DNA of 64,000 nt from Reyranella aquatilis (GTDB lineage: Bacteria > Pseudomonadota > Alphaproteobacteria > Reyranellales > Reyranellaceae), in the NCBI RefSeq assembly GCF_020880995.1, contig NZ_JAJISD010000004.1:62001-126000 (forward strand), given 5' to 3'. Positions 31,850 to 46,627 of the stretch are shown piece after piece. The position numbers and the translations under genes are program-made. Each line of letters begins with the position of its first letter. Position 1 is the stretch's first letter. The notes below the pieces were generated by a model. It was not told where the DNA came from and ran no database searches. It saw nothing but the letters and a program-made list of their open reading frames with translations.

Positions 31850-32398
31850 TCAGCCACTGCGTGGCATCTTGCCTTCGTTGAGGCGCGGCATCAGCTCGGC
31901 GAAGTTGCAGGGGCGGAAACGGATGTCGAGCTGCTGGCGCAGGATGTCGTCCCAGCCGTCCTTGCAGGCGCCGGTCGAGCCGGGCAGCGCGAAGATGTAG
32001 GTCGCGTTGGCGACGCCCGCGGTGGCGCGGCTCTGCATCGTAGAGGTGCCGATCTTCTGGAAGCTGATCCAGCGGAAGGTCTCGCCGAACCCCTCGATCT
32101 TCTTCTCGAACAGCGCCTCCAGCGCCTCCGGCGTGACGTCGCGGCCGGTGACGCCGGTGCCGCCGGTCGAGATCACGACCTCGATGCGCGGATCGTCGAT
32201 CCACTTCTGCACCTGCGCGCGAATCAGCGCGACGTCGTCGGTGACGATGGCGCGGTCGGCCAGGACATGGCCGTCGCGCGCGATGCGCTCGACCAGCGTG
32301 TCGCCCGACTTGTCGGTCTCAAGCGTGCGCGTGTCGGAAACCGTGAGAACGGCGATGTTCACCGGCTTGAATTGCTTGGTTTCGTCGATGCGGTTCAT
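31850..32398 (-). CDS. moaB: Molybdenum cofactor biosynthesis protein B
   Basis: 182 residues, MogA/MoaB fold that binds molybdopterin and adenylates it or supports that step. Seen are IAVLTVSDTRTLETDKSGD, the STGGTGVTGRDVTPEAL pterin-binding loop, and FALPGSTGACKDGWDDIL. The start at 32398 (MNRIDETKQFKP) is typical of MoaB; AGGAG lies a little far upstream (about 12 bases). No other moa genes are in the window. Confidence 0.93.
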   Translation of the reverse strand: MNRIDETKQFKPVNIAVLTVSDTRTLETDKSGDTLVERIARDGHVLADRAIVTDDVALIRAQVQKWIDDPRIEVVISTGGTGVTGRDVTPEALEALFEKKIEGFGETFRWISFQKIGTSTMQSRATAGVANATYIFALPGSTGACKDGWDDILRQQLDIRFRPCNFAELMPRLNEGKMPRSG

Positions 32399-32579
32399 GC
32401 GTCCACTATACTCCTGGGCCCGGCCTCGTTCGATGTCTGCCGCGAAATCCGTTCGCGCCGCCAAAGGATTTTTCCCGAGAACGCAGGGAAAGCATCACGA
32501 CTTTCCATTGACTCCCCCGGGCGGGGTTCTAGTGATCTCCCAACCCAACGAATCAGACAGTTAACAGCCTGGAGACACC

Positions 32580-33053
32580 ATGACTGGCCCCACCGATTGG
32601 AAGCATGACGGCGTGCGGGTCATCCCCGCCGGATCGCTCGACACCAACACCGCGCAGACCCCGGGCATGAACCGGGCCGCGGCCATCAATTTCGCCCGCG
32701 TCGGCGCCCAGAAGCTGTGGGCCGGCACGGTGACCATCCACGCCCACGCCAAGACCGGCGCCCATCATCACGGGCACCTAGAAAGCGTGATCTACGTCGT
32801 TAAGGGTCGCGCCCGCATGCGCTGGGGCGACCAGCTCCAGTTCGTGGCCGAAGCAGGCCCCGGCGACTTCATCTACGTGCCCCCCTACGTGCCGCACCAG
32901 GAGATCAACGCCTCGGACACCGAGCCGCTGGAATGCGTGCTGGTCCGTTCCGACAACGAGGCGGTCGCGATCAACATCGACATCACCCCGGCCGAGAAGG
33001 TCGAAGAAGTCTACTGGGTCGACCCGACGCATCCCCATCCGCACAAACACTGA
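32580..33053 (+). CDS. Cupin-domain protein with His-rich C-terminus
   Basis: 157-residue single-domain cupin. The metal site is suggested by AKTGAHHHGHLESVIYVVKG, then GDFIYVPPYVPHQEINA with the late histidine. The C-terminus DPTHPHPHKH is histidine-rich and could bind metal. The biochemical role is unknown. The gene ends inside a long hairpin and is followed by a strong terminator at 33145-33175. Confidence 0.85.
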   Translation: MTGPTDWKHDGVRVIPAGSLDTNTAQTPGMNRAAAINFARVGAQKLWAGTVTIHAHAKTGAHHHGHLESVIYVVKGRARMRWGDQLQFVAEAGPGDFIYVPPYVPHQEINASDTEPLECVLVRSDNEAVAINIDITPAEKVEEVYWVDPTHPHPHKH

Positions 33054-33080
33054 CGCTGCGCGTCAGAGTTTGTGCGGATG
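33036..33080. repeat. 20-bp hairpin spanning the cupin stop codon
   Basis: Arms 33036-33055 and 33061-33080 pair over 20 bp with one mismatch and a 5-base loop (CTGCG). The TGA of the cupin gene is inside the left arm. No T-tract follows on either strand, so this alone is not a standard terminator; it could protect the mRNA 3' end or work with the terminator downstream. Confidence 0.65.
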
Positions 33081-33144
33081 CGCGGGCGGCAGCGCATTCA
33101 TATGCGCGAGAGCCCGCACGGTGCAGAATAGATATGAATTCGAA

Positions 33145-33175
33145 GGCGGCCCTACCCGGCCGCCTTCTTCTTTTT
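33145..33175 (+). terminator. Rho-independent terminator after the cupin gene
   Basis: GGCGGCC (33145-33151), 6-base loop, GGCCGCC (33158-33164), then TTCTTCTTTTT (33165-33175) on the plus strand. It overlaps the last codons of the convergent tctA gene, whose lysine-rich C-terminus (KKKKAAG) is encoded by the same bases. Confidence 0.75.
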
Positions 33176-34636
33176 CGGCCACAGCCCAGCCAGAAGCAGC
33201 AGCACCGCCACGATCGCAAAACCGGTCGAGATCGTGCTGTGCAGGAAGATCGTCGGATCGCCGTCGGAGATCGCCAGCGCCTGGCGCACCGAACGCTCGA
33301 AGATCGGGCCCAGCACGTAGGCCAGGATGACGATGCCGAGGTCGAAGCCGTGGCGGCGCAGGAAGTATCCCACGAAGCCGAAGATCACCGAGATGACCAC
33401 GTCGGCGGGATTGCCGTTCGAGGAATAGACACCGATGAGGCAGACCGCGAGGATCATCGGCGTGAGATAGGCGCGCGGGATGTCGAGGATGCGCACGAAC
33501 AGGCCGATCAGCGGCAGGTTCAGGATCAGCAGCATGACGTTGCCGATGTACATGCTGGCCACGACGCCCCAGAAGATCTCGGGCTGGCGCTCCAGGATGG
33601 TCGGCCCCGGCGTGACGCCGTGGATGATGAAGGCGCCGAGCAGCAAGGCCGTCACCGCGTTGGCGGGGATGCCCATGCAGAGCAGCGGGACGAAGGCGCC
33701 GGCGGTGCCGGCATTGTTGGCCGATTCCGGCCCGGCCAGTCCCTCGACGGCGCCCTTGCCGAACTCCTCGGGGTGCTTCGAGAGCTTGCGCTCCATGCCG
33801 TAGGACAGGAACGAGGCCAGCACCGCGCCGCCGCCGGGCAGAAGGCCCACCAGGAAGCCCATGAATGTGCCGCGCACGACCGGACCGACGGATCGCCTGG
33901 CCTCTTCGCGCGAGGGCATGAAGCCCAGCAGGTGCGAGGGCGGCGGCAGGACCTTCATGTCGTCGGGCTTCTGGCGCGCCATGAACAGCACTTCGGACAG
34001 GCCGAACAGGCCGATTGCCAGCGGGACGAGATTGACGCCGTCGCCCAGCGCCAGGATGCCGAAGGTGAGACGCGGCGTCATGTTGAGCGGGTCGCTGCCG
34101 ATCGTGCCCAGCAGCAGGCCGAACGCCGCCATCAGCAGCGCGCGCGGCAGCGAGCCGCTCGACATGTAGGTGACCATGGTGAGGCCCGCGAGCATCAGCA
34201 TCGCATACTCGGCGGGGCCGAACTTGATGACCAGCTCGGCGAGCGGCGGTGACAGGAAAGAGATCCCGATGACGCCCACCGTGCCGGCGAAGAACGAGCC
34301 CAGTCCGGCGATGCCCAGCGCGGCGCCGGCACGGCCCTTGCGCGCCATCTCGTAACCGTCGAGGCAGGTCACGACCGACGAGGCCTCGCCCGGGATGCGC
34401 ATCAGCACCGAGGTCACGGTGCCGCCATAGGCCACGCCGTAGTAGATGCCCGACAGCATGATGATGGCCGAGGTCACGTCCATCTTGAACGTGATCGGCA
34501 GCAGAATGGCGATGGTGGTGAGCGGCCCCAGCCCCGGCAGGATGCCGACGACGGTGCCGAGGAACGCGCCGACGAAGCAGTAGAACAGGTTGTCGAGGGT
34601 CAGCGTGGTGGCGAAGCCGCCCAGCAGCGCTTCCAT
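33152..34636 (-). CDS. tctA: Tripartite tricarboxylate transporter, large membrane subunit
   Basis: 494 residues, about 11-12 transmembrane helices. TctA signatures are VVGILPGLGPLTTIAILLP near the N-terminus, GTVTSVLMRIPGEASSV and its repeat GPESANNAGTAGAFVPLL / LCMGIPANAVTALLLG. It forms the channel-like subunit of the sodium- or proton-coupled TTT uptake system with TctB and the periplasmic TctC. Lies 10 bases after tctB. Confidence 0.95.
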   Translation of the reverse strand: MEALLGGFATTLTLDNLFYCFVGAFLGTVVGILPGLGPLTTIAILLPITFKMDVTSAIIMLSGIYYGVAYGGTVTSVLMRIPGEASSVVTCLDGYEMARKGRAGAALGIAGLGSFFAGTVGVIGISFLSPPLAELVIKFGPAEYAMLMLAGLTMVTYMSSGSLPRALLMAAFGLLLGTIGSDPLNMTPRLTFGILALGDGVNLVPLAIGLFGLSEVLFMARQKPDDMKVLPPPSHLLGFMPSREEARRSVGPVVRGTFMGFLVGLLPGGGAVLASFLSYGMERKLSKHPEEFGKGAVEGLAGPESANNAGTAGAFVPLLCMGIPANAVTALLLGAFIIHGVTPGPTILERQPEIFWGVVASMYIGNVMLLILNLPLIGLFVRILDIPRAYLTPMILAVCLIGVYSSNGNPADVVISVIFGFVGYFLRRHGFDLGIVILAYVLGPIFERSVRQALAISDGDPTIFLHSTISTGFAIVAVLLLLAGLWPKKKKAAG

Positions 34637-34646
34637 GCGTCAAACC

Positions 34647-35138
34647 TCAGCGAACGTAGGTGTAGAATTTGCGCTCGATCGGGCCTTCCGGCAGATCGAC
34701 GCGCAGCAGCCAGCCGAAGCAGACCAGGCCGGCGGCGGCACAGGCGATGCCGTAGCCGATCGAGGCGAACCAGGACCGACGTTCGGCGAAGCGCATGATC
34801 ACGATCGTCACGGCCATGGTGGTGACGACGAAGCCGGCATACATCGCGCCCAGCGCGAACACCGCGAAGGTGGCGATGTAGATCGCGAAGGTCCGGTTCG
34901 ACTCCTTCGTCGCCTCGACGTCGTCGGTGTCGCCACCCTCGGTCTCGCCGGCCTGGCCCGGAAAGACCAGGACGACCAGGGCGAGCGTCACGCAGATGCC
35001 GGCCATGAGCTGCGGGAAGAAGCCGGGGCCGGGACCGTCGAAGCCCCAGCTTTCCAGCTCCAATGCCTTCCACAGGCCGATGAGCGCGGCGCCCAGAAGG
35101 CCGAGCGTCGCGATCCGCGTGCCGCCCAGCTTCATCAT
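34647..35138 (-). CDS. tctB: Tripartite tricarboxylate transporter, small membrane subunit
   Basis: 163 residues with four transmembrane helices, the TctB layout: FDGPGPGFFPQLMAGICVTLALVVL is the typical first signature, and VLRVDLPEGPIERKFYTYVR-like C-terminal charged tail follows the last helix. The ATG at 35138 overlaps the tctC stop (ATGA). A long in-frame extension to 36020 lies inside tctC and is an artefact. Confidence 0.9.
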   Translation of the reverse strand: MMKLGGTRIATLGLLGAALIGLWKALELESWGFDGPGPGFFPQLMAGICVTLALVVLVFPGQAGETEGGDTDDVEATKESNRTFAIYIATFAVFALGAMYAGFVVTTMAVTIVIMRFAERRSWFASIGYGIACAAAGLVCFGWLLRVDLPEGPIERKFYTYVR

Positions 35139-36103
35139 GCCGGCTTCTTGGCCATGCCGGTTTCCTTGAGGATCGGCACCAGCTCCTCCTCGATCTTCTT
35201 GAGCAGCGCGCCGTATTCCTTGCCGTCGCGATAGATCGCCTGGATGCCGAGCTTGGTGATCTGGCTGGTCACGGACTCGTCCTTCATGACGTCGGCCAGT
35301 GCCTTGTCCATGCGCTCCTTGATCGCCGGATCGACTCCGGTCGGGAAGGCGTAACCGAAGGGTCCGTTGCTGACGGCGTTGTAGCCCAGCTCGCGCAGCG
35401 TCTTGACGTCCGGATAGTCGGGCCAGCGCGCCTCGGCGGCCGAGGCGAGGAAGCGCAGCTTGCCGGCCTCGATCTGCGGCCGCATCTCGGTGACCGTCTG
35501 GATGACCGCATCGACATGGCCGCCGATCGCAGCCGTCACCGATTCGACGCCGCCCGGGAACACGACCCAGCGCAGCTTGGCGCCGCTGAGTTTGGCGAGC
35601 TGGAACATCGCCACCACGTTGGTGACGTTGTTGGAGCTGTAGGTGAGCTGCTTCTGCTTGCCCTGGTTGACAAGGTCCTCGATCGACTTGATCGGGCCGT
35701 CGGCCTTCGCGCCGATTCCGTATCGCAGGGCCGCGACCTGGCCGATGATGTCGAACGCCTTCCACGGCTCGTAGGCGACGTTCATCATGTTCGGCACGGC
35801 GATATGGCTGGAGATCGCCACCAATCCCATCGTGTGGCCGTCCGGCGCCGACTGCGCCAGCGTCGTCGGCCCGAGTGCGCCCGCGCCGCCCACGACGTTC
35901 TTGACGATGACCGTCGCGTTCAGCCGCTTTTCGAGCGCCTGAGCGATGATGCGCGCGGTGAGGTCGGTCGAGGCACCCGGCGCGTTCGGATTGATCAGCG
36001 AGATCTCGCGCGCCGGCCACTTGCTGGACTGGGCGATCGCCGGCGCGGCCACGGTCATGGCGGCGAGCGCGGTCCCACCCTTCAATACGCTTCTGCGGTT
36101 CAT
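35135..36103 (-). CDS. tctC: TctC-type periplasmic solute-binding protein
   Basis: 322 residues. A signal peptide with NRRSVLKGGTALAAM is followed by the Bug/TctC fold: NPNAPGASTDLTARIIAQAL, VVGGAGALGPTTLAQS and DGHTMGL, which coordinate a carboxylate ligand. The start at 36103 has GGAGG eight bases upstream; the longer 36127 start would place the signal internally. The ligand is unknown; its neighbours point to a thiol- or sulfinate-bearing carboxylate. Confidence 0.92.
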   Translation of the reverse strand: MNRRSVLKGGTALAAMTVAAPAIAQSSKWPAREISLINPNAPGASTDLTARIIAQALEKRLNATVIVKNVVGGAGALGPTTLAQSAPDGHTMGLVAISSHIAVPNMMNVAYEPWKAFDIIGQVAALRYGIGAKADGPIKSIEDLVNQGKQKQLTYSSNNVTNVVAMFQLAKLSGAKLRWVVFPGGVESVTAAIGGHVDAVIQTVTEMRPQIEAGKLRFLASAAEARWPDYPDVKTLRELGYNAVSNGPFGYAFPTGVDPAIKERMDKALADVMKDESVTSQITKLGIQAIYRDGKEYGALLKKIEEELVPILKETGMAKKPA

Positions 36104-36190
36104 GCTGTTTTCCTCCCTTGATTTCATATCGGGTGACAGTGCTTGTCGTGCCCGCGATCGGTCAAGGGAGGCGTGCCGGTACGCGAACCT

Positions 36191-36814
36191 CTACGGGGCC
36201 GCGCGCACCTCGGCCGAACGATCCCAGATGTTGGGCTGCTCGCGGTTGGTGTAGCCCGACACGAAGAGGTTCGGCTGGCCGGTCGTCACGTCGTAGGTGT
36301 GCCGACGCACAGCACCGATGTTACCGCCGTAGACATGGATGCTGATCGAGCCGCGATCGTCCAGTGCGTTGGTCACCTGGTGAATGTCGCCCACGGGATT
36401 GCGCGGCGCCGGGACGAGGACCTCGACGTCGCCGGGCTCGAGCTTGCTGAGCGCGCCCGGCACCAGCACGCCGGTCTCGGGATGACGCGTGAAGCTGAGC
36501 GAGGTTTCCGAACCGCGCAGCATGCCGACCAGACCCCACATCTCGTGATCGTGCACCGGCGTGTTGGCCCTGGGCGCCCACACGAAACTCACGACGCAGA
36601 AGCGCTCGAACGGGTCGCACCACAGCAGGTTCTGCGCATAGCCATGCGGCGGCACCTTCGCCGCCTGCTCGGGCAGCCAGTCGTCGTGCTTCACCAGCTC
36701 GCCGAGAAGCTTGGCGCCGACCTCGACGACGGCGTTCTCGTCCTTGTCCTGCCAGGCACCACCGGTGAGAGAGGTCATGTCGCCGATGAAACGGCGCAGG
36801 CGATCGATGCTCAT
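36191..36814 (-). CDS. Gln-type thiol dioxygenase (3-mercaptopropionate dioxygenase group)
   Basis: 207-residue cupin of the cysteine-dioxygenase superfamily. The iron ligands are H88 and H90 in TPVHDHEMWG and H145 in GDIHQV. The Ser-His-Tyr triad is S158-H160-Y162, with arginines R170/R171 in GAVRR placed to bind a substrate carboxylate. Q61 takes the place of the arginine found in true cysteine dioxygenases, the pattern of enzymes that oxidise 3-mercaptopropionate to 3-sulfinopropionate. From memory it closely resembles the Pseudomonas aeruginosa member. It overlaps the CoA-transferase stop by 4 bases and sits 87 bases before tctC. Confidence 0.88.
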   Translation of the reverse strand: MSIDRLRRFIGDMTSLTGGAWQDKDENAVVEVGAKLLGELVKHDDWLPEQAAKVPPHGYAQNLLWCDPFERFCVVSFVWAPRANTPVHDHEMWGLVGMLRGSETSLSFTRHPETGVLVPGALSKLEPGDVEVLVPAPRNPVGDIHQVTNALDDRGSISIHVYGGNIGAVRRHTYDVTTGQPNLFVSGYTNREQPNIWDRSAEVRAAP

Positions 36815-37974
36815 TCCGCAGCCTTTCGCTGGAAGGTGTTTCCGAAGATCGCCTCGGTGTCGGCACCGAGGGCCGGCGGATCCCGCCGCTTGGAGATGTC
36901 CGTGGCCGAAATCCGGACCGGGCTCCCGAAGGTTTTCGTCTTCACGCCGGAAGGAAGCTCCATTTCCTCGACCCAGCCCATGTGCGCGACCTGCGGGTCG
37001 GCCAGGATCTGGCTGTAGGTGTTGATGCGGCCCTGCGGCACGCCGGCCTTCTCGAAGGCGGCCAGCCAGTGATCCACGCCGTGCTTCGCGAACTCGACCT
37101 CGAGCAGGTCCTTCAAGGCGACCTGGTTGGCGGCGCGCGACTGCGTCGTGGCAAAGCGCGCATCGGCGAAGAGGTCGGGACGCCCGACCACCTGGGTCAC
37201 GGCTTCCCACAGCTTGTTGTTGCCGGCGGCGATGACGAAATGGCCGTCGGCCGCCTTGAAGGCCTGGTAGGGCGCGTTGCGCGGATGGGCAGAGCCGAGC
37301 TTCCTGGGATCGTTGCCGGTGCCGAAGAACTCGCTGGTCTGGAGCGCGGCCATCCCCAGGCTGCAGCCCAGCATCGACGCATCGACATGCGCGCCGGGTC
37401 CGCCACCCGCCACGCGGCGCAGGATGGACACGATCGTCAGGGCCGCATAGAGCCCGGTGCCGACATCGGAGACCGGCACGCCGCACTTGACCGGCGCGCC
37501 GTCGGGCTCGCCGGTCACGCTCATGATGCCGCTCATCGCCTGAACGGTGACGTCGAAGCCGCCCTCGCCCGAGCGTGGGCCGCTCTGGCCGAAGGCCGAA
37601 ATGGAGCAATAGACGAGGCCGGGCTTCTCGGCACGGAAGGATTCGTAGCCGAGGCCGAGCCGATCCATCACGCCCGGCCGGTTATTCTCCAGCACCACAT
37701 CGGCGGTGAGGATCAGCTGGCGCGCCGCCGCCTTCTGCGCCGGGTCCTTGAGATCGAGCACGACCGAGCGCTTGTTGCGGTTGATCGAGGCGAAGTTCTC
37801 GCTGTAGCCCCCCTCGGAGCCTTCTGTGATCGGCGGCCACTGGCGCATCATGTCGCCCTCGGGCGGCTCGACCTTGATCACCTCGGCGCCGAGATCAGCC
37901 AGCAGCATTCCACAATAGGGACCTGCCAGGACCTGGCAGAACTCGACGACGCGTACACCAGCCAGCGGCAACAT
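36811..37974 (-). CDS. Class III (CaiB/BaiF) CoA-transferase
   Basis: 387 residues. The family start LAGVRVVEFCQVLAGPYCGMLLADLGAEVIKVE, the catalytic aspartate D170 in PVSDVGTG and NRNKRSVVLDLKDP are present. It moves CoA between carboxylic acids. Its place between slt and a thiol dioxygenase, and with a TTT transporter downstream, recalls succinyl-CoA:3-sulfinopropionate CoA-transferases of dithiodipropionate degraders, which also belong to class III. Specificity cannot be read from sequence alone. Confidence 0.9.
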   Translation of the reverse strand: MLPLAGVRVVEFCQVLAGPYCGMLLADLGAEVIKVEPPEGDMMRQWPPITEGSEGGYSENFASINRNKRSVVLDLKDPAQKAAARQLILTADVVLENNRPGVMDRLGLGYESFRAEKPGLVYCSISAFGQSGPRSGEGGFDVTVQAMSGIMSVTGEPDGAPVKCGVPVSDVGTGLYAALTIVSILRRVAGGGPGAHVDASMLGCSLGMAALQTSEFFGTGNDPRKLGSAHPRNAPYQAFKAADGHFVIAAGNNKLWEAVTQVVGRPDLFADARFATTQSRAANQVALKDLLEVEFAKHGVDHWLAAFEKAGVPQGRINTYSQILADPQVAHMGWVEEMELPSGVKTKTFGSPVRISATDISKRRDPPALGADTEAIFGNTFQRKAAE

Positions 37975-37976
37975 GA

Positions 37977-39827
37977 TCAGCGGGTTCCGTCCTGCGCGAT
38001 GTAGCGGGGCCAGTCATGCGAGGCGATCTGGTCGAGCGACGGCGTCGGCTGGCCGAGTCGAAGCTGGTAGATCCAGTAGTTGGTGAGCACGCGCTGCACG
38101 AAGTCGCGCGTCTCGTGGAGCGGGATCAGCTGGATATAGAGGAGCGGATCCTGCGAGGCGTTCAGCGAATTGTCCCAGCGCATCACGTTGCCCGGCCCGC
38201 CATTGTAGCCCGCCGTCGTGCGCACGAGATTGCCGTCGGTCTCGTTGAGCAGCATCGAGATGTAGGCCTGGCCCAGCGACATGTTTACCGACGGATCCCA
38301 GGGATTGGCCCCCGCGGTCTCCGGCGCATAGCGCGCGGAGACCGCGCGCGCCGTGGCCGGCATCAGCTGCATCAGGCCCATCGCACCCACGACCGAGCGC
38401 GCCTTGGGATTGAACGCCGATTCCTGGCGCATGAAGGCATAGACCAGTGCACGGTCGACACTCTGGCCGCTCGAGGGTTGCCACGGCGGGACCGGATACA
38501 TGCCGCCGTCGTAGCCCTTGATGTTGTGACGCTGATCCCAGTTGGCGTTGCCGACGCGCACCGACAAGGCGGGCAGTTGTGCCTTCTGCGCCAGCGCCAT
38601 CACCGCCTCGACGTAGCGCGGATCGGCGTCGATCGAGGCGGCGAAGAGTTCGCGCTCCGCCGCCGTCGTGGCGCCGAGCTGCAGCAGCGCCAGCGCGCGA
38701 CGGGCGGCACGGTCGTCGCGCAGCATGTCGGTGCGCTTGCGGTCGAGCGCCGGCACCTCGAAGTCGGGCTGGATCTGCATGCCCAGCGCCTTCTGCGCGA
38801 CGAGCCCGTAGAAGGTGCGGCCATGCAACGCCGCGCGCTTGAGGTAGGGCGCGTATTTCTGCGGGTTGCCGGCCAGCAGGTTGGCGCGTGCCGCCCAGAA
38901 CGAGCCCGCCGCCAGGGTCCACGACGAGGCACGGTCGGGCGAGGCATCGGCCACCAGCTCGAAGCGGCGGGCCGCCTCGGCCATGTTGCCGCGCGTGAAT
39001 GCCGTCATGGCGGCGTTCCAGTTGGCGTCGGGCGGCATGCTGGCCTCGACGGGAATCTGGACGCCCCGCTGCGGGTCGGCTTCGAGCTGGCGCGTGCGCA
39101 GGCGGCCGCGCCACAGCTCGACCTCCTGCGGTCCGAGGATTTCGGTCGAAGACTTGCGGTCGAGCAGGACGAAGGCGGCATTGAAGCCGCCGTCGTCGGC
39201 CATGCTCTGCAGCCGCGATCGCAGTTCCGCGGCGCGGCCGGCATCGGCGCCGTTCACGGTGCGGGCGGCGGCGAAGTTGGGCGAGCCCGGCGTGGAGCCG
39301 ACGAAGGTTGCCGGCGTGAGTTCCGGGCCGCCGGGCGTGCGCCGCGCCAGGGCGAGACGGTAGATCGCGGGTGCGTCGGGATGGTCGTTGTATTCCTGGA
39401 GCCAGGCCGCCAGCTGGTCGTAGCGTGCCTGGTTGTTCGGACTGAGCAGTCGCTGCGCGCCGACATAGCCCATCAGCGTCTTGTCCTGGAGCTGACGGAT
39501 GTCTTCGTCCGCCTGCGCCCAGTTTCCCGACTGCTGCGCCTGGAAGATGCGGCGGTAACGGTCGCGGGTTTCGTTGTCGAGGACGGTCGGCAGCCCGGCG
39601 ACGACCGCGTTCTCGTCGAGTTCGACGACGGGCGGCGGCGGCACATAGACCGCGGCGCGCGGCGCGGGACGGGCCGCGGGTCGCGCTGCCGGCCGGGTCA
39701 CGGCGGCCTTGGTGGTCGCGGGGTTGGTCGCCTGCGTCTGGACCGGCTTCTTGGCGGTCTGCGCCGAAGCCTGGGCCGCCATCAGGGCGGCCGCCCCGAT
39801 CAGGACGGCGGATAGGGTGGTTCGCAT
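37977..39827 (-). CDS. slt: Soluble lytic murein transglycosylase
   Basis: 616-residue exported Slt70-like enzyme. A signal peptide (AVLIGAAALMAAQASAQ) and Ala/Pro-rich linker precede a long superhelical TPR-like region, and the C-terminal catalytic domain has the glutamate in RQESAFNPKARSVVGAMGL and MQLMPATARAV. It cleaves peptidoglycan with 1,6-anhydro formation. The start MRTTLSAV at 39827 is chosen so that the signal peptide is N-terminal. Only 2 bases separate it from the CoA-transferase gene, an odd partner for a housekeeping enzyme. Confidence 0.92.
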   Translation of the reverse strand: MRTTLSAVLIGAAALMAAQASAQTAKKPVQTQATNPATTKAAVTRPAARPAARPAPRAAVYVPPPPVVELDENAVVAGLPTVLDNETRDRYRRIFQAQQSGNWAQADEDIRQLQDKTLMGYVGAQRLLSPNNQARYDQLAAWLQEYNDHPDAPAIYRLALARRTPGGPELTPATFVGSTPGSPNFAAARTVNGADAGRAAELRSRLQSMADDGGFNAAFVLLDRKSSTEILGPQEVELWRGRLRTRQLEADPQRGVQIPVEASMPPDANWNAAMTAFTRGNMAEAARRFELVADASPDRASSWTLAAGSFWAARANLLAGNPQKYAPYLKRAALHGRTFYGLVAQKALGMQIQPDFEVPALDRKRTDMLRDDRAARRALALLQLGATTAAERELFAASIDADPRYVEAVMALAQKAQLPALSVRVGNANWDQRHNIKGYDGGMYPVPPWQPSSGQSVDRALVYAFMRQESAFNPKARSVVGAMGLMQLMPATARAVSARYAPETAGANPWDPSVNMSLGQAYISMLLNETDGNLVRTTAGYNGGPGNVMRWDNSLNASQDPLLYIQLIPLHETRDFVQRVLTNYWIYQLRLGQPTPSLDQIASHDWPRYIAQDGTR

Positions 39828-39915
39828 GGCGCACCGTAGTTTGACTCTGGCCCACACGACAAGAGTGGGGCGACAAGGGCCGGTGGGCCTATACTGCGCG
39901 CAACGGAGGACCTGA

Positions 39916-42105
39916 ATGAACCTGCATCAAGAGCGTGCCGCGGCCGTGCGGCGCCTGATCGACGAAGCCCGCACCATCGAGAAGTCGGGCGTGACATACG
40001 CCAATCTCGAGAAGATCGGTGGACTTCTCTCGTCGCTGGCCCGCCGCGCCGAGCTCTTTCCGCAGGAGGAGTTTCCGCTGGGCGCCGACGGCGGCATCTA
40101 TCGCCTGAGCGAGGATCCCGACCATCGCTTCGCGCTCTATGCCTCGGCCGGTGGCGCCGGCAAGAAGGTGCCGCCGCACAACCACACGACCTGGGCGATC
40201 ATCGCCGGCGTCCACGGCGCCGAGCGCAACGTCGTCTACGACCGGCTCGACAACGGCGCGCAGGAAAACGTCGTGCAGTTGCGCGAGGCGCCGGCCAAGG
40301 AGAAGACGCTGAAGCGCGGCGACGTGATCACCTTCCTTCCCGACGACTTCCATCATATCGAGACACCGGTCGATTCGGGCAATGCGCTGCACCTTCACTT
40401 TTATGGCCTCAGCCTCGAGCACCTGCCCAACCGGCTGACCGTCGACATGAAGACCGGCGCGGCCAAGCGCTTCATGGCGAAGCCGAAGATCCTGACGCCG
40501 CTGCTCAGCGTGCAGCAGGTCAAGGAGATGCTGAAGGGCGGCGAGGTCTTCGCGTTCTTCGACGTGCGCGAGGAAGGCGAGTTCTCGACCCAGGGCCATC
40601 CGCTGTTCGCCACCCCGCTCCCCCTCTCCCGCCTCGAGCCGCGGGCGCTCGCCCTGCTGCCCGATCCGCACATCCGCATCGTGTTGATGGACGGCGGCGA
40701 GGAAGGGCAGACGGGGCGCGCCAACCGCGCCGCCGCGGCCCTCAGCCGCCTCGGCTACACCAATCTCGCGGTGATGGCCGGCGGCCTTAAAGGATGGCGC
40801 GACGCGGGCTACGAGGTCTTCACCGGCGTCAACGTGCCCAGCAAGGCGTTCGGCGAGGTCGTCGAGCACGGCAACGACACGCCGCGCATCGACGCCGCCG
40901 ACGTGCAGAAGCTGATCGACAGCAAGGCCGACATGGTGATCCTCGATTCGCGGCCGCTGCCGGAATTCACCAACATGTCGATCCCCGGCGGTGTCGACTG
41001 CCCCGGCGCCGAGCTGGTCTATCGCGTGAAGGACTTCGTGACCCGGCCGGAGACGCTGGTCGTCGTCAACTGCGCCGGCCGCACGCGCTCGATCATCGGC
41101 GCCCAGTCGCTGATCAATGCCGGCCTGCCCAACAAGGTGATGGCGCTGAAGAACGGCACCATGGGCTGGCACCTGGCCGGCCTCAAGGTTGCCCGCGGCG
41201 AGACGAGGAGTTTCGGCCCGCAGGGTGCCGAAGCCGCGAGGTTCGCTCAGGCCGCCGCCGCGAATATCGCGGCCAGGATGGGCATCCGGAAGATCGACAA
41301 GGCCGGCCTCGACGCCCTGGTGAAGAAGGGCGGACCGCTCTATCGCCTCGACGTGCGCGATCCCGCCGAATATGCGCAGGGCCATCTCGCGGGCTTCCGC
41401 CATGCCGCGGGCGGCCAGCTCGTGCAGGCGACCGACCAGTATGTCGGCGCCCGCAACGCCACCATCGTGCTGCACGACAATGACGGCGTGCGCGCCACCA
41501 TGACGGCGCACTGGCTGCTGCAGATGGGCTGGAACGAGACCTACGTGCTCGATCACAAGCCGGCAGCATCCGAACTCACGACCGCGGCCGAGCCACGATA
41601 TCCCGCCGGTTTCATCGTGCCGCAGGTCCCGACGGTAACGGCGGCCGAACTCGAAAAGTCGCTGGCGACGAGCCTCGTGATCGATCTCGACACCAGCCTG
41701 AAGTATCGCGACGGACACATCCCCGGCGCCTGGTTCGCGGTCCGCGCCAATCTTGCGCGCACCCTGCCGGAAATGCTGGGAAAACAGCCCGGCAGCACCC
41801 GGATCGTCCTCGTGGCCCCTGATGCCGAGATCGCTGCCTTGGCCGCATTCGAAATTGCCGAACAAGCCGGCGTGACCCCGGTCCATATTCTGTCAGGCGG
41901 AATGAAGGCGTGGCGGGAGGGTGGTTTCGACCTCGAAACCGGGCATGTCCGAATGGCAGATCCGCCGACCGACGTCTGGTACCGCCCCTACGACTTCAAG
42001 GAGGACGTGGAAGCAGCCATGCGACAGTACCTCGACTGGGAGGTAGACCTCGTCCCGCAGGTCGAGCGCGACGGTGATGCCCGGTTCACTGTCCTCAAGC
42101 GGTAG
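39916..42105 (+). CDS. Cupin (thiol-dioxygenase-like) fused to four rhodanese domains
   Basis: 729 residues. Residues 1-175 are a cysteine-dioxygenase-like cupin: H88 and H90 in PPHNHTTWAIIAG, H146/H147 in DDFHHIET, and HLHFYG. Four rhodanese folds follow: about 195-305, 322-430, 460-555 and 572-690. Only the second has a catalytic cysteine (C386 in NCAGRTRS); the equivalent positions in the others are Asp or non-polar (D259, D521, A634). Only two cysteines (C362, C386) exist in the whole chain. No signal peptide. It may oxidise a thiol or persulfide and transfer sulfane sulfur. It is divergent from slt. Confidence 0.87.
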   Translation: MNLHQERAAAVRRLIDEARTIEKSGVTYANLEKIGGLLSSLARRAELFPQEEFPLGADGGIYRLSEDPDHRFALYASAGGAGKKVPPHNHTTWAIIAGVHGAERNVVYDRLDNGAQENVVQLREAPAKEKTLKRGDVITFLPDDFHHIETPVDSGNALHLHFYGLSLEHLPNRLTVDMKTGAAKRFMAKPKILTPLLSVQQVKEMLKGGEVFAFFDVREEGEFSTQGHPLFATPLPLSRLEPRALALLPDPHIRIVLMDGGEEGQTGRANRAAAALSRLGYTNLAVMAGGLKGWRDAGYEVFTGVNVPSKAFGEVVEHGNDTPRIDAADVQKLIDSKADMVILDSRPLPEFTNMSIPGGVDCPGAELVYRVKDFVTRPETLVVVNCAGRTRSIIGAQSLINAGLPNKVMALKNGTMGWHLAGLKVARGETRSFGPQGAEAARFAQAAAANIAARMGIRKIDKAGLDALVKKGGPLYRLDVRDPAEYAQGHLAGFRHAAGGQLVQATDQYVGARNATIVLHDNDGVRATMTAHWLLQMGWNETYVLDHKPAASELTTAAEPRYPAGFIVPQVPTVTAAELEKSLATSLVIDLDTSLKYRDGHIPGAWFAVRANLARTLPEMLGKQPGSTRIVLVAPDAEIAALAAFEIAEQAGVTPVHILSGGMKAWREGGFDLETGHVRMADPPTDVWYRPYDFKEDVEAAMRQYLDWEVDLVPQVERDGDARFTVLKR

Positions 42106-42155
42106 AAGGGCGCAACGCCTTGTATTTGAAGGCCTTGTCACATCGTCGCGTCCGC

Positions 42156-42184
42156 TTGACTCCCTCCGGGCCTGCCAATAGGTT
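42156..42184 (+). promoter_or_regulatory. Candidate promoter of the F0 ATP synthase operon
   Basis: TTGACT (42156-42161), 17-base spacer, TAGGTT (42179-42184), about 75 bases before atpI. A 7-bp hairpin (42207-42223, CGCATCG paired with CGATGCG) follows in the presumed leader. Spacing is ideal; prediction by eye. Confidence 0.4.
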
Positions 42185-42258
42185 CCGGCGCGTTTTTCAT
42201 TGTGACCGCATCGCGTCGATGCGATGGCGATGGAAAGCCCGGAGCGGAGCATCCGGTT

Positions 42259-42603
42259 ATGGCTGAGGACGATCGGAAATCGACCCCTGATGAGCTGGAT
42301 CGGCGCCTGAAAGGTGTCCGGCAGGCCTACCAGGCGGGAACAGGACGGTCGTCGGGACCCGCAACGCGTGGCGCCGGAGGCGAAAAGCTGGGCGTCGGCA
42401 TGCGGATCGCGGTCGAACTGGTGGCGGGCGTCGTTGCGGGGGCCTTTCTCGGCCTGATGGCTGATCAGTGGTTGGGAACCAAGCCCTGGCTGCTGATCGT
42501 GGGGTTCGTACTGGGGTGCTGTGCGGCGTTCTTGAACGTCTACCGGGTTGCGCAGGCTGAAGAGCGGCGCAGCAAGGCGGCCCAGGATGAAAAGAAGAGC
42601 TGA
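42259..42603 (+). CDS. atpI: ATP synthase protein I (AtpI/AtpZ-like)
   Basis: 114 residues: a charged N-terminal part, then two transmembrane helices (IAVELVAGVVAGAFLGLMAD, WLLIVGFVLGCCAAFLNVYR) joined by a short loop, the AtpI pattern. It assists c-ring assembly or magnesium uptake. The start MAEDDRKSTPDELDRRL at 42259 is preferred to the longer frame at 42202, which adds non-conserved residues. First gene of the F0 operon. Confidence 0.88.
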   Translation: MAEDDRKSTPDELDRRLKGVRQAYQAGTGRSSGPATRGAGGEKLGVGMRIAVELVAGVVAGAFLGLMADQWLGTKPWLLIVGFVLGCCAAFLNVYRVAQAEERRSKAAQDEKKS

Positions 42604-42620
42604 TTTGGGGATAGAGTAAC

Positions 42621-43349
42621 GTGGCCAGCCCGCTCGAGCAGTTTGCTATCCAGGACTACACCGCCCCGCTGTTCACCATCGGCGGCCATCACATCGCCGT
42701 CACCAATTCCGCCGTCTTCATGATGGGCGCCGTGGTGCTCTCCTCGGGTCTGCTGATGGCGGGCGCGGGCAAGGGAGCGATGATCCCGGGCCGTATCCAG
42801 GCGATGGCCGAACTCTTCTACGAGTTCATCGCCAACATGATCCGCGACAATGTCGGCAGCGGCGGCAAGAAATTCTTCCCGTTCATCTTCTCGCTCTTCA
42901 TCTTCACGCTGTTCGGCAACATCCTCGGGATGCTCCCCTACGGCTACACCTTCACGTCCCAGATCGCCGTCACCTTCTTCATGGCGATGGTGGTGTTCCT
43001 CGGCGTGACGCTGATCGGCCTGTTCAAGCACGGCCTCCACTTCTTCTCCCTGTTCTTCCCGCACGGCGCGCCGCTGTTCACTGCGCCGATCCTGATCCCG
43101 ATCGAGCTGGTCTCCTATCTCAGCCGCCCGATCAGCCTGTCGGTCCGCCTGTTCGCCAACATGACCGTCGGCCACGTGCTGCTGAAGGTGCTGGCGGGCT
43201 TCGTCGTGGCGCTCGGCATCTTCGGTGTCGTGCCGCTGGTGGTCCTGATCGCGATCACGGCGCTGGAGCTGCTGGTCGCGCTGCTGCAGGCCTACATCTT
43301 CACGATCCTCTGCTGCATTTACCTGAACGACGCGCTGCATCTGCACTGA
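42621..43349 (+). CDS. atpB: ATP synthase F0 subunit a
   Basis: 242 residues, five to six transmembrane helices. The essential arginine is in SLSVRLFANMTVGH and the C-terminal helix is AYIFTILCCIYLNDALHLH. It forms the proton half-channels facing the c-ring. The start codon is GTG at 42621. F1 genes are not in the window, so the F0 and F1 operons are separate, as in most alphaproteobacteria. Confidence 0.96.
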   Translation: MASPLEQFAIQDYTAPLFTIGGHHIAVTNSAVFMMGAVVLSSGLLMAGAGKGAMIPGRIQAMAELFYEFIANMIRDNVGSGGKKFFPFIFSLFIFTLFGNILGMLPYGYTFTSQIAVTFFMAMVVFLGVTLIGLFKHGLHFFSLFFPHGAPLFTAPILIPIELVSYLSRPISLSVRLFANMTVGHVLLKVLAGFVVALGIFGVVPLVVLIAITALELLVALLQAYIFTILCCIYLNDALHLH

Positions 43350-43409
43350 TCGCCGCGCCCGTACCCATCGATCCATCACGTCAAAGCCAAGAGAAAACAG
43401 GAGATAGAA

Positions 43410-43634
43410 ATGGACGCTTCAGCCGCCAAGTTCATCGGTGCAGGCCTCGCCGCCATCGGCATGATCGGCGCCGGCATCGGCGTGGGCAACGTCTGGGCGA
43501 GCTACATCACGGCCCTGTCGCGCAACCCGGCCTCGAAGGCCGAAATCGGCGCCAACATCTGGATCGGCTTCGCCGTCACCGAGGCCATCGCGCTGTTCGC
43601 GCTGATCGTCGCGCTGATCGCCCTCTTCGCCTGA
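43410..43634 (+). CDS. atpE: ATP synthase F0 subunit c
   Basis: 74-residue hairpin of two transmembrane helices. The glycine-rich first helix is AIGMIGAGIGVGNVWASY, the polar loop is RNPASKAE, and the proton-binding glutamate is in AVTEAIALFAL. A glutamate site with this context implies proton rather than sodium coupling. AGGAG lies seven bases before the ATG. Confidence 0.97.
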   Translation: MDASAAKFIGAGLAAIGMIGAGIGVGNVWASYITALSRNPASKAEIGANIWIGFAVTEAIALFALIVALIALFA

Positions 43635-43642
43635 GTTCGATC

Positions 43643-44212
43643 GTGCCCGTTCAGGCACTCCGGACTCTGGTCACCGCGGCAGCCCTGATCGGGCTGCCGT
43701 TTGCCGCGCAGGCGGCCGGCATGCCGCAGTTCGACCTCAAGAGGTTCCCCACCCAGATCTTCTGGTTGGTGGTGTGCTTTGCCGTTCTGTACTTCCTCAT
43801 GGCCAAGGCCGTCCTGCCGAAGATCGGCAAGACGATCGAAAGCCGCGAGCACAAGATCCAGGCGGACCTCGACGCGGCCCAGAAGGCCAACGACGCCGCT
43901 CGCGCGGCGGCGGTCGAGCAGGACAAGGCGCTTGCCGAGGCGCGCGGACAGGCTTCCGGCCTGATCCGGGCCGCATCGGAAGCCGCTGCGGCCGCGACCT
44001 CGGCAAAGATGCACGAAGTCAGCGACCGGTTGGGCGCCGACATTGTCGCCGCCGAGAAGCGAATCGGCGAGCAGCGTACGCAGGCTCTGGCGGGCCTCGG
44101 CGCCATGTCGAGCGAGATCGCCACCGCGGTGATGGGCAAGCTGGTGGGATCGGCAGATCCTGCGCAGGTCGCCCGTGCCGTGGATGAAGCAGCAAAGGCA
44201 GGCAAGCCATGA
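43643..44212 (+). CDS. atpG: ATP synthase F0 subunit b'
   Basis: 189 residues, the longer of two b-type stator subunits. It has an N-terminal hydrophobic, signal-like stretch, a transmembrane helix (FWLVVCFAVLYFLMA) and a long charged coiled coil. A b/b' heterodimer is typical of alphaproteobacteria and photosynthetic lineages. The start is GTG at 43643, 8 bases after atpE. It overlaps atpF by 4 bases. Symbol follows alphaproteobacterial usage (atpG or atpF2). Confidence 0.92.
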   Translation: MPVQALRTLVTAAALIGLPFAAQAAGMPQFDLKRFPTQIFWLVVCFAVLYFLMAKAVLPKIGKTIESREHKIQADLDAAQKANDAARAAAVEQDKALAEARGQASGLIRAASEAAAAATSAKMHEVSDRLGADIVAAEKRIGEQRTQALAGLGAMSSEIATAVMGKLVGSADPAQVARAVDEAAKAGKP

Positions 44213-44739
44213 TCGGTACCGCATGGGCTGCCGACGCACACGGCGGCGGCGGAGGCTTGTTCTCCGACCCGACGTTCTGGGTCGCCGTTGCCTTCTTTCT
44301 GTTCCTGGCGATCGCCGGCAAGCAGATCGTCAAGGGGCTGACCAAGCTCCTCGACGACCGCACCGCCCTGATCGCCCGCACGCTCGGCGAAGCCGAGAAG
44401 CTGCGCAACGAGGCACAGAAGGCGCGCGACGATGCCCAGAAGAGCCTGGCCGATTCGGCCAAGCTCGCCCAGGAGATCGTCGAACAGGCCAGGCGGGAGG
44501 CCGAGCGCCTCACGCAGCACGCCGCCGAGGAGCGCGAAGCGCTCATCGCCCGCCGCGAGCAGCAGGCCAAGGACCGCATCGCCCAGGCCGAGGCCCAGGC
44601 GTCGCGCGAAGTGCGCAACATGGCCGTCGACGTGGCGCTCGCCGCCACCCGCACCCTGCTCAAGGAGCAGGTTGGCGGCGGCCGCACGCAGGCGATGATC
44701 GACGAGGCCATCACCGAACTGCCGCGCCGTCTGCACTGA
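44209..44739 (+). CDS. atpF: ATP synthase F0 subunit b
   Basis: 176 residues: transmembrane helix FWVAVAFFLFLAIAG near residues 23-37, then a charged helical stalk (EAEKLRNEAQKARDDAQ, REAERLTQHAAEEREAL) ending in a delta-binding C-terminus. It is the last gene of the F0 operon and is followed by a strong terminator at 44790. Confidence 0.95.
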   Translation: MIGTAWAADAHGGGGGLFSDPTFWVAVAFFLFLAIAGKQIVKGLTKLLDDRTALIARTLGEAEKLRNEAQKARDDAQKSLADSAKLAQEIVEQARREAERLTQHAAEEREALIARREQQAKDRIAQAEAQASREVRNMAVDVALAATRTLLKEQVGGGRTQAMIDEAITELPRRLH

Positions 44740-44789
44740 TCTTCAGAAAATAGGGATCGCCCGCAAAACAAAAGAGCGGGCAACCTGGT

Positions 44790-44822
44790 GCCCCTCGCCG
44801 CAAGGCGGGGGGCTTTTTCTTT
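44790..44822 (+). terminator. Rho-independent terminator of the F0 operon
   Basis: GCCCCTCGCC (44790-44799), GCAA tetraloop (44800-44803), GGCGGGGGGC (44804-44813; one G-T pair), then TTTTTCTTT (44814-44822). About 50 bases after the atpF stop. Confidence 0.88.
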
Positions 44823-44965
44823 GGCTGGTCGCCAAGTCCAAAAGTCGAGCGAGCTTGCGCAAGCGCAACGCTCACCAGCTCTTCTCCTCCTGCGTCTTAC
44901 GGGGGAGGCCGGCAACGTGATGATTGCTGGCCGGGAAGAGTTCAGACCTTTGGCCTTCCCCCTCC

Positions 44966-45003
44966 GGCCCTTTCGGGCCGCCTCCCCCGTCTGGCGGGGG
45001 AGG
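44966..45003. repeat. Double hairpin between convergent atpF and gcvPB
   Basis: GGCCC-TTTC-GGGCC (44966-44979) is followed at once by CCTCCCCCG-TCTGG-CGGGGGAGG (44981-45003). Related pieces (CGGGGGAGG near 44901, CCCCCTCC near 44958) lie in the same 200-base gap, which looks like a non-coding repeat-type element. It could end gcvPB transcription although no T-tract follows on the minus strand. Apart from the atp terminator I see no gene in 44823-45028. Confidence 0.5.
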
Positions 45004-45028
45004 AAATCATGATTGCGCTATGCGCCTA

Positions 45029-46627
45029 CTACTCCGCCGCCTGCTTCAGCGGATCAATGCCCGGCGGATTGTTCGAGGGCTTCCAGCGCAGGACCGGCTT
45101 GCGGGCGGCCAGCGTCTCGTCGAGGCGGCGGCGCGGGGCGTAGAGCGGCGCGGCCTTGAAGTCCTCGGCCGCGGTGCCGGTCTTGGCCTTCGCGGTGAGC
45201 GAGCGCAGCGCGCCGATGAACTGGTCGAGGTCCTCCTTGGCCACGGTTTCGGTCGGCTCGATCAGCATCGCGCCATGCACCACCAGCGGGAAGTACATGG
45301 TCATCGGATGGTAGCCCTCGTCGATCATCGCCTTGGCGAAGTCGAGCGTGCTGACGCCCGTATCCTTGAGGAAGCTGTCGTCGAACAGCGCCTCGTGCAT
45401 GCACGGCCCCTCGAAGGCCGGGCTCATCACATCCTTTAGGGCCGCCATCACGTAGTTGGCGTTCAGCACCGCGTCCTCGGCGACCTGCTTCAGCCCATCG
45501 GCGCCGTGACTCATGATGTAGGCCAGCGCGCGCGTGAACATGCCCATCTGGCCGTGGAAGGCCTTGAGCCGTCCCAGCGGCGCGCCCTCGACCTTGGCTC
45601 CGTCCTCGGCGACGCGCCACGTGTCGCCGTCCTTCACGATCCACGGATAGGGCGCATAGGGCGCCAGCGGCGCCGACAGCACCACCGGACCGGCGCCCGG
45701 ACCGCCACCGCCATGCGGCGTCGAGAAGGTCTTGTGCAGGTTGATGTGCATGCAGTCGATGCCGAGGTCGCCCGGCCGCACGCGGCCGACGATGGCGTTG
45801 AAGTTGGCGCCGTCGCAGTAGAAGTAGGCGCCCGCCTCGTGCACGGCCTTCGAGATCTCGACGATGTCGCTCTCGAACAGGCCGCAGGTGTTGGGATTGG
45901 TCAGCATGATGGCCGCCACGTCGGGGCCCAGCGCCGCCTTCAGCGCGGCGAGATCGACACGGCCGCGGTCGTTGGCCGGGATCGGCTTCACGACGAAGCC
46001 CAGTGCCGCCGCCGTCGCGGGGTTGGTGCCGTGCGCCGATTCGGGCGCCAGTACCGTCTTGCGCTTGGCGCGCTCGCCCTTGGCCTCGAGGGCTGCGGCG
46101 ATCGCCATCATGCCGCACATCTCGCCGTGTGCGCCGGCGGCCGGCGACATCGCCACGGCCGGCATGCCGGTGAGGGTCTTCAGCCAGTGCGCCAGGCTGT
46201 CGATCAGCTCGAGCGCGCCCTGCACGGTCGAGACCGGCTGCAGCGGATGGAGATCGCCGATGCCGGGCAGGCGCGCGACCTTCTCGTTGATGCGGGGGTT
46301 GTGCTTCATGGTGCACGAGCCCAACGGGTAGACGCCCATGTCGATGGCGTAATTCTTCTGGCTGAGCCGCGTGTAGTGCTGCACCACCTGCGGCTCCGCG
46401 AGCCCCGGCAGACCGATCGTGCCCTTGCGGCGCAGGCCGTTCAGCCGCTCCTTGACCTTGGGCGGTTCGGGCAGGTCGACGCCGCAGCGTCCGGTCTGGC
46501 CCATCTCGAAGATCAGCGGTTCCTCGATCTGGAGCGCGCGGTTGCCGGTGTAGGTGCCGTGATTGTTGGCGGAGCCGGTGGCGACGCCGCCGGCGCGTCC
46601 CTGGCTGCGGTCGAGCGACTGTACCAT
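45029..46627 (-). CDS. gcvPB: Glycine dehydrogenase (decarboxylating) subunit 2
   Basis: 532 residues, the PLP-carrying half of a two-subunit P protein. The PLP lysine is in MHINLHKTFSTPHGGGGPG. With GcvPA it decarboxylates glycine and loads the aminomethyl group on lipoyl-GcvH. The ATG at 46627 shares one base with the gcvPA stop (TGATG), so the two halves are translationally coupled. The frame is open further upstream but that is inside gcvPA. Confidence 0.96.
   Translation of the reverse strand: MVQSLDRSQGRAGGVATGSANNHGTYTGNRALQIEEPLIFEMGQTGRCGVDLPEPPKVKERLNGLRRKGTIGLPGLAEPQVVQHYTRLSQKNYAIDMGVYPLGSCTMKHNPRINEKVARLPGIGDLHPLQPVSTVQGALELIDSLAHWLKTLTGMPAVAMSPAAGAHGEMCGMMAIAAALEAKGERAKRKTVLAPESAHGTNPATAAALGFVVKPIPANDRGRVDLAALKAALGPDVAAIMLTNPNTCGLFESDIVEISKAVHEAGAYFYCDGANFNAIVGRVRPGDLGIDCMHINLHKTFSTPHGGGGPGAGPVVLSAPLAPYAPYPWIVKDGDTWRVAEDGAKVEGAPLGRLKAFHGQMGMFTRALAYIMSHGADGLKQVAEDAVLNANYVMAALKDVMSPAFEGPCMHEALFDDSFLKDTGVSTLDFAKAMIDEGYHPMTMYFPLVVHGAMLIEPTETVAKEDLDQFIGALRSLTAKAKTGTAAEDFKAAPLYAPRRRLDETLAARKPVLRWKPSNNPPGIDPLKQAAE

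Follow-up and report, generated by a model that had tools for sequence, protein, structure and literature searches.

What is the function of a protein that joins, on one chain, a cupin resembling thiol dioxygenases to four rhodanese domains, a single one of which carries a loop cysteine? Such a protein is encoded in the window, meaning the whole stretch of 64,000 nucleotides that was analysed. The initial annotation had proposed that sulfur is handed from C386, the cysteine of the second rhodanese, to an iron site in the cupin by way of a scaffold or channel. The features placed on the gene were as follows.

39916..42105, + strand: fusion gene, a single ORF of 729 aa, predicted MSDO-like thiol dioxygenase plus four rhodanese domains
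39905..39909, + strand: likely ribosome-binding site GGAGG, with the ATG six bases further on
39916..40482, + strand: cupin domain, residues 1-189, assigned from 8vni by sequence and fold
40177..40185, + strand: codons of H88-N89-H90, giving two iron ligands by homology (His conservation)
40351..40353, + strand: codon of H146, third iron ligand by homology (His conservation)
40501..40824, + strand: rhodanese 1, residues ~196-303, Asp at the loop-cysteine position (Pfam, AlphaFold model, alignment)
40879..41190, + strand: rhodanese 2, residues ~322-425, with the sole loop cysteine of the four (AlphaFold model, alignment)
40999..41001, + strand: codon of C362, the second cysteine, conserved in the clade of the window protein (alignment of fused proteins)
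41071..41073, + strand: codon of C386, the expected persulfide cysteine, in the loop C-A-G-R-T-R (conservation)
41281..41556, + strand: rhodanese 3, residues ~456-547, Asp at the loop-cysteine position (Pfam, AlphaFold model, alignment)
41629..41931, + strand: rhodanese 4, residues ~572-672, Ala at the loop-cysteine position (Pfam, AlphaFold model, alignment)

Structure prediction with AlphaFold, using the window protein and 37 relatives as input, gave a model of the 729-residue protein with a mean pLDDT of 91.5 and a pTM of 0.90, and recovered the cupin fold and four rhodanese folds that had been anticipated. Foldseek with this model returned 1yt8 as the top match (TM 0.93 by target), followed by 8vni (0.89). 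A search for the domain architecture found 72 fused relatives with 49-91% identity to the window protein (best segment), which excludes a chance origin of the fusion. The nearest relatives of the window protein belong to Reyranella and other Alphaproteobacteria. The chain contained just the two cysteines previously counted, C362 and C386, and both were present in 73/73 fused proteins (the window protein and its 72 relatives). An NCBIfam scan of the window protein gave zero families above cut-off, and neither Rfam over 32000-46000 nor promoter and terminator scans around the fusion gene returned anything informative. A long ORF (39889-41886) overlaps the fusion gene on the opposite strand. Antisense frames at the fusion gene recurred across many loci, as is expected of G+C-rich genes, and were given no weight.

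The Pfam scan of the 729-residue protein did not detect a cupin family. In a sequence search of the PDB, residues 8-182 matched 8vni, a mercaptosuccinate dioxygenase (MSDO), with an E-value of 3.7e-26, and a second sequence comparison of the cupin with 8vni gave 3.2e-27. VIA-align superposed the cupin on 8vni over 188 residues (Z 27.4, rmsd 1.6), compared with Z values of ~22 for 3-mercaptopropionate dioxygenases (3MDO) and ~18 for mammalian cysteine dioxygenase. Among solved structures, the cupin was closest to 8vni in both sequence and fold, which upholds its description as thiol-dioxygenase-like, and sequence and model assign it to the CDO/3MDO/MSDO superfamily with a predicted three-histidine iron site on a cupin fold. 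H88, H90, H146, Y163, and R173 were invariant in the 73 fused proteins and H161 was found in 72 of them; all six were invariant across a larger sample of 98 cupins that took in fused, adjacent and other ones, with near-copies and weak matches excluded. The metal site had been proposed at H88, H90, and H146/147. The three residues H88, H90, and H146 stood, while H147 was rejected as an iron ligand, the residue being variable (H 49, T 21, S 2, A 1).

The second-sphere triad is Ser-His-Tyr in 3MDO; in the window cupin H161 and Y163 were present, with H159 in place of the serine. In 3MDO, Arg168 holds the substrate carboxylate (PMC8050391, available text). R173 probably corresponds to this residue, and an arginine at the same column was also seen in 3MDO-like cupins (11/11 adjacent ones). 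With 8vni the window cupin has in common the cupin fold, the three-histidine site, H161, Y163, and R173, as well as N105, Y75, E168, and H159, which are absent from the 3MDO sequence. It differs from 8vni, a separate polypeptide with 33-34% identity, in the position of R71 (43/47 fused cupins), which is a serine in 8vni. In the midpoint-rooted cupin tree, window-type fusions fell in a different group from 8vni (separating branches 0.948 and 0.83), and the substrate may therefore not be mercaptosuccinate. The 8vni segment clustered with the cupin of locus L128 (support 0.995). The sequence suggests that the predicted cupin dioxygenase converts a thiol to a sulfinate, with a carboxylate-bearing thiol as its substrate.

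The rhodanese half matched 1yt8, a P. aeruginosa 'thiosulfate sulfurtransferase' that we take to be PA2603, over residues 205-727 in the PDB sequence search (E 6e-120) and over 516 residues in VIA-align (Z 55.4). Window residues 194-728 aligned to it at 45% identity and an rmsd of 1.9. This end-to-end match, together with four Pfam rhodanese stretches (PF00581, 3.8e-44), confirms the four folds. The 1yt8 protein carries the CAGRTR loop in rhodanese 2, as does the window protein, but has no cupin and has a cysteine in the rhodanese 4 loop, where the window protein has Ala. The main text of PMC9765439 does not mention PA2603, and no functional study of the 1yt8 protein was found in the literature searched, the nearest being a tst deletion in the available text of PMC12947264.

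At the loop-cysteine position, rhodaneses 1 to 4 of the window protein have D, C386, D, and A, respectively, in agreement with the earlier reading of Asp or a non-polar residue in all copies except the second. C386 and the loop-end R391 were found in all 114 aligned four-rhodanese rows, the window included, and the placement of the chain's sole loop cysteine in the second rhodanese held. Rhodanese 1 had D in 110 of these rows and G in 4, rhodanese 3 had D in 108 and C in 6, and rhodanese 4 mostly had S or A. The loop CAGRTR is of the six-residue active-rhodanese type, with Cys first and Arg, Thr or Ser last; the active loop of RDL2 is CAKGVR (PMC8533005, available text). Rhodanese 2 is the only active-looking copy of the four, with a predicted sulfurtransferase activity. 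By sequence, one active and three degenerate copies are the conserved plan of the widespread 1yt8 family, including the solved 1yt8, and so the three inactive copies are not the unusual feature that they had been taken for.

The fourth rhodanese had a cysteine at the loop position in 11/11 genes adjoining a 3MDO-like gene, in 1/25 adjoining an MSDO-like gene and in 0/46 fused rows; in the 3MDO-type fusion of locus L182 the residue is S. In the proteins adjoining 3MDO-like genes, this cysteine is perhaps a second sulfur site. C362, which sits 24 residues before C386, was C in 43/46 fused rows (V or L in the remaining three) and in 30/68 unfused rows, and was rejected as a hallmark of the fusion on these grounds. 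Many relatives outside the window clade have V, L, M or A instead, and C362 might partner C386. Shorter relatives were also seen (L099-L104, L118, and L129), with frames of 379-442 aa and a match that stops after rhodanese 3; L129, the same gene as L099, retains the C-terminal tail as well.

Persulfide dioxygenase-rhodanese fusions have fewer rhodanese domains than the window protein. Like it, these fusions (5ve4; CstB) join a non-heme iron dioxygenase to a rhodanese, and their existence, with a metallo-beta-lactamase dioxygenase partner (PMC6060420, available text), lends some plausibility to a scheme close to that of the initial annotation, in which persulfide sulfur made or carried by the rhodanese would reach the cupin iron on a small thiol and be oxidised there to sulfite. 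A thiol-dioxygenase site might, moreover, accept persulfides. We nevertheless regard this scheme as distinctly improbable. The BpPRF/CstB-type dioxygenase has a metallo-beta-lactamase fold in which two His and one Asp bind the iron (PMC6060420, available text), whereas the N-terminal domain of the window protein is a cupin, and 5ve4 matched the window model structurally in the rhodanese domain only. The cupin lies near MSDO and 3MDO, whose published substrates are thiols (PMC5373536 and PMC8050391, available text), and it has no cysteine. The lack of a cupin cysteine, together with the frequent occurrence of four-rhodanese proteins as separate polypeptides, likewise leaves the proposed channel from C386 to the iron without support.

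The coupling of the two halves was investigated across genomes. A search of 337 genomes of the class with a profile of the fusion gave a match at E 1e-30 in 63. Separate MSDO-like cupins numbered 24, and in 18 cases the next gene downstream on that strand encoded a four-rhodanese protein, at a distance of -25 to 62 nt; for the remaining six, there was no four-rhodanese gene on the contig in five cases and one 1 Mb off in the other. Fused genes occurred in 19 places in 18 genomes: 17 were MSDO-type (two of these, G407:C54 and G566, being partial matches), one was 3MDO-type (G543:C6, which is L182), and one was a split pair (G299) with an in-frame stop between the cupin and rhodanese parts, which was counted as an adjacent pair. 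Pairs with a 3MDO-like cupin are missing from this count because the fusion profile misses distant cupins.

Over 156 scanned loci, 158 four-rhodanese genes were found, of which 89 were fused to an MSDO-like cupin, 25 adjoined an MSDO-like cupin, 11 adjoined a 3MDO-like cupin, and one (L182) was fused to a 3MDO-like cupin; these are counts of loci rather than species, since some loci are duplicates (zero-length pairs in the tree). A profile of 3MDO, run over 33 genes classed as without an adjoining cupin and 11 adjoining a cupin of another kind, changed the class of L182 alone, whose cupin the MSDO-like profile does not detect; it also found an extra cupin 3.7 kb upstream in L121 and six more on the other strand, 2-3.2 kb off. 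In a phylum-wide draw of 299 genomes, 22 matched the four-rhodanese part, with 6 of the 22 stopping after the third domain. Among plasmids there were 103 matching records, and 14, including a fused Variovorax paradoxus protein, covered >=80% of the fusion in one place.

The same four-rhodanese protein is thus coupled to both MSDO-like and 3MDO-like dioxygenases, members of two subfamilies, and the two proteins very probably work together in organosulfur breakdown. This repeated genetic coupling bears out the link that had been drawn between the cupin and rhodanese halves. Both halves were known already, and clustering of their genes has been published for a few strains (PMC5373536 and PMC12947264, available text). 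Genes for a rhodanese and for a cystathionine beta-lyase cluster with msdo in Advenella and Variovorax (PMC5373536, available text). In Pseudomonas (PA2602-PA2603), a dioxygenase gene stands directly before an annotated thiosulfate sulfurtransferase gene, and 3mdo and tst form an apparent transcription unit in P. protegens (PMC12947264, available text); this system differs from that of the window in having a 3MDO-subfamily dioxygenase and two proteins, as opposed to an MSDO-like cupin on one chain. No paper on the fused form was found in a literature search that reached few subscription journals. The novelty lies in the pairing of the four-rhodanese protein with members of two dioxygenase subfamilies, and in a lyase as a third partner.

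The history of the fusion was more complex than a single joining. FastTree placed the MSDO-type fusions in three groups among 114 four-rhodanese regions, and the AU test in IQ-TREE (46 rows) ruled out one clade of all MSDO-type fusions (p-AU 1.4e-4). Groups 1 and 3 together were rejected (1.05e-5), as were groups 2 and 3 (0.0073), while groups 1 and 2 as one clade were not (p 0.70). These rejections imply either repeated fusion or a fusion that was subsequently split; were the ancestor fused, the separate genes would have to derive by splitting. In eight loci of the window clade (L051-L055, L058, L061, and L062), the cupin was absent and C362 was kept, which is likely a secondary loss of the cupin. 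Parallel to the window gene, L182:1817-3970 encodes a 3MDO-branch cupin (PF05995; the three 3MDO-like relatives that score best are 64-70% identical to it) fused to four rhodaneses. As this cupin is of the other subfamily, the fusion is most simply a separate event. A four-rhodanese protein was also found fused to a Cys/Met PLP enzyme (PF01053; 535 bits against the cystathionine beta-lyase profile) at L125:7100-9856, with an MSDO-like cupin gene just upstream; three of its rhodanese stretches pass Pfam unaided.

Pairing and fusion with two dioxygenase subfamilies imply that one partner handles what the other makes or needs. The reading that we tentatively favour, at somewhat under an even chance, is that the window protein is a bifunctional organosulfur-catabolic enzyme, in which the cupin makes sulfinate or sulfite and C386 moves sulfane sulfur. 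The fusion would have joined two proteins elsewhere encoded side by side, an MSDO-branch thiol dioxygenase and a 1yt8-family sulfurtransferase. The cupin would oxidise a small carboxylate-bearing thiol with O2 to a sulfinate, and the sulfinate would break down to sulfite; for MSDO, the product sulfinosuccinate is published to decay to succinate and sulfite (PMC5373536, available text). A persulfide or another donor would load C386 with sulfane sulfur, which C386 would pass on, most likely to the cupin-derived sulfite, giving thiosulfate. The three degenerate rhodaneses may provide a structural frame for the active one, like the inactive half of two-domain rhodaneses. Rhodaneses can pass persulfide sulfur to sulfite, and the fusion would couple the release of sulfite to its capture. 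The parts, the conserved sites, and the repeated genetic coupling are established at the level of sequence and predicted structure; the direction of sulfur flow is suggested by gene context. Such coupling would make the purpose of the 1yt8 protein directly testable on a single chain and tie it to organosulfur breakdown.

The association could also be looser, with the rhodanese serving a general task (thiosulfate or cyanide handling, or sulfur supply for assimilation) and the fusion providing co-regulation only. No cupin gene adjoined 32 of the 158 four-rhodanese genes within the flank seen, which was 1.5 kb around many of the 156 loci, and the window's own genome encodes a lone four-rhodanese paralogue with 49% identity (G000:C8:66314-67906; L002, L111) that adjoins a TctC receptor and a LysR regulator. 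In P. protegens, tst deletion did not significantly change extracellular 3-MPA (PMC12947264, available text), and the dioxygenase step was therefore not seen to need the rhodanese in that organism. Against these observations, members of two dioxygenase subfamilies are found fused to the four-rhodanese protein, and gene order was constant among the pairs that were seen; we consider a merely co-regulated rhodanese quite unlikely.

Genes surrounding the coupled dioxygenase and rhodanese genes were also compared. All five lyases tested belonged to the cystathionine beta-lyase family (TIGR01324 above cut-off). A lyase was found in the stretch surrounding 10/25 MSDO-like pairs, 8/89 MSDO-type fusions, 0/11 3MDO-like pairs, and 1/33 genes without a neighbour (L182 being counted there), as read with a profile built from six of the scanned loci, six of the hits being its own members, and with flanks of unequal length. 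The lyase-bearing fused loci include near-copies and one duplicate, and the hit in L137 is 3.4 kb distant and adjoins an unfused MSDO-like cupin. Directly after the fusion, a lyase gene was seen in L066 and L071 (Stella) and in L072. In L128, one strand carries the cupin, the four-rhodanese gene, a TctC-like ORF, and a cystathionine beta-lyase gene, in that order. A Caballeronia cluster contains, in this order, amino-acid ABC transporter genes, cysteine dioxygenase, metC, and two four-rhodanese genes, and a TauE/SafE sulfite exporter gene ends beside it on the opposite strand, the only annotated cluster to show one. Three annotated 3MDO-like pairs were accompanied by flavin-dependent oxidoreductase and ABC transporter genes (3/3) and an acyl-CoA dehydrogenase gene (2/3). 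Neither a lyase nor an exporter gene lies beside the window fusion gene, whose direct neighbours are a divergent ORF (by eye a lytic transglycosylase) and ORFs that by eye are ATP synthase genes. The linked lyase and exporter genes fit a cupin acting on a small thiol and a rhodanese acting on sulfane sulfur or sulfite; they are compatible also with the C386-to-iron direction, for which a small carrier or path would be needed.

Cystathionine-beta-lyase-type enzymes act on cystine. A lyase could accordingly set a different order of events, splitting a cysteine mixed disulfide to R-SSH, from which C386 would strip the sulfane sulfur before the cupin oxidises the remaining R-SH, so that the rhodanese step would precede the dioxygenase step on the same carbon skeleton. 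The lyase genes around the MSDO-like pairs and fusions counted above, and the L125 lyase fused to a four-rhodanese protein, speak for such an order. The 81 of 89 fusions, the window's included, with no lyase in the stretch seen speak against it, as does the opposite strand of the lyase in three of the ten lyase-bearing MSDO-like pairs (L158, L160, and L162). We regard this order as unlikely.

A further reading, which we put forward as a faint possibility, is that the dioxygenase, the four-rhodanese protein, and the beta-lyase form a salvage module for cysteine S-conjugates, e.g., S-(2-succino)cysteine. Fumarate-derived S-(2-succino)cysteine would be converted by the lyase to mercaptosuccinate, an MSDO-type cupin would generate succinate and sulfite from this, the latter being captured as thiosulfate by the fused rhodanese. 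If true, this would supply a natural substrate for MSDO and an additional pathway for degrading S-(2-succino)cysteine, with the last two steps on one chain in Reyranella-like bacteria. No paper joining S-(2-succino)cysteine with mercaptosuccinate was found in the literature searched, and the main text of PMC9706529, on S-(2-succino)cysteine, contains neither 'mercaptosuccin' nor 'cystathionine'.

A second thiol-dioxygenase-like cupin is encoded in the window at 36191-36814 on the - strand, with CDO_I below the Pfam cut-off and close relatives that fall in the 3MDO branch. It overlaps a CoA-transferase family III gene (36811-37974, - strand) and is followed by genes that by eye encode a tripartite tricarboxylate transporter (33152-36127, - strand). 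This cluster resembles the 3-mercaptopropionate cluster of Advenella (PMC5373536, available text).
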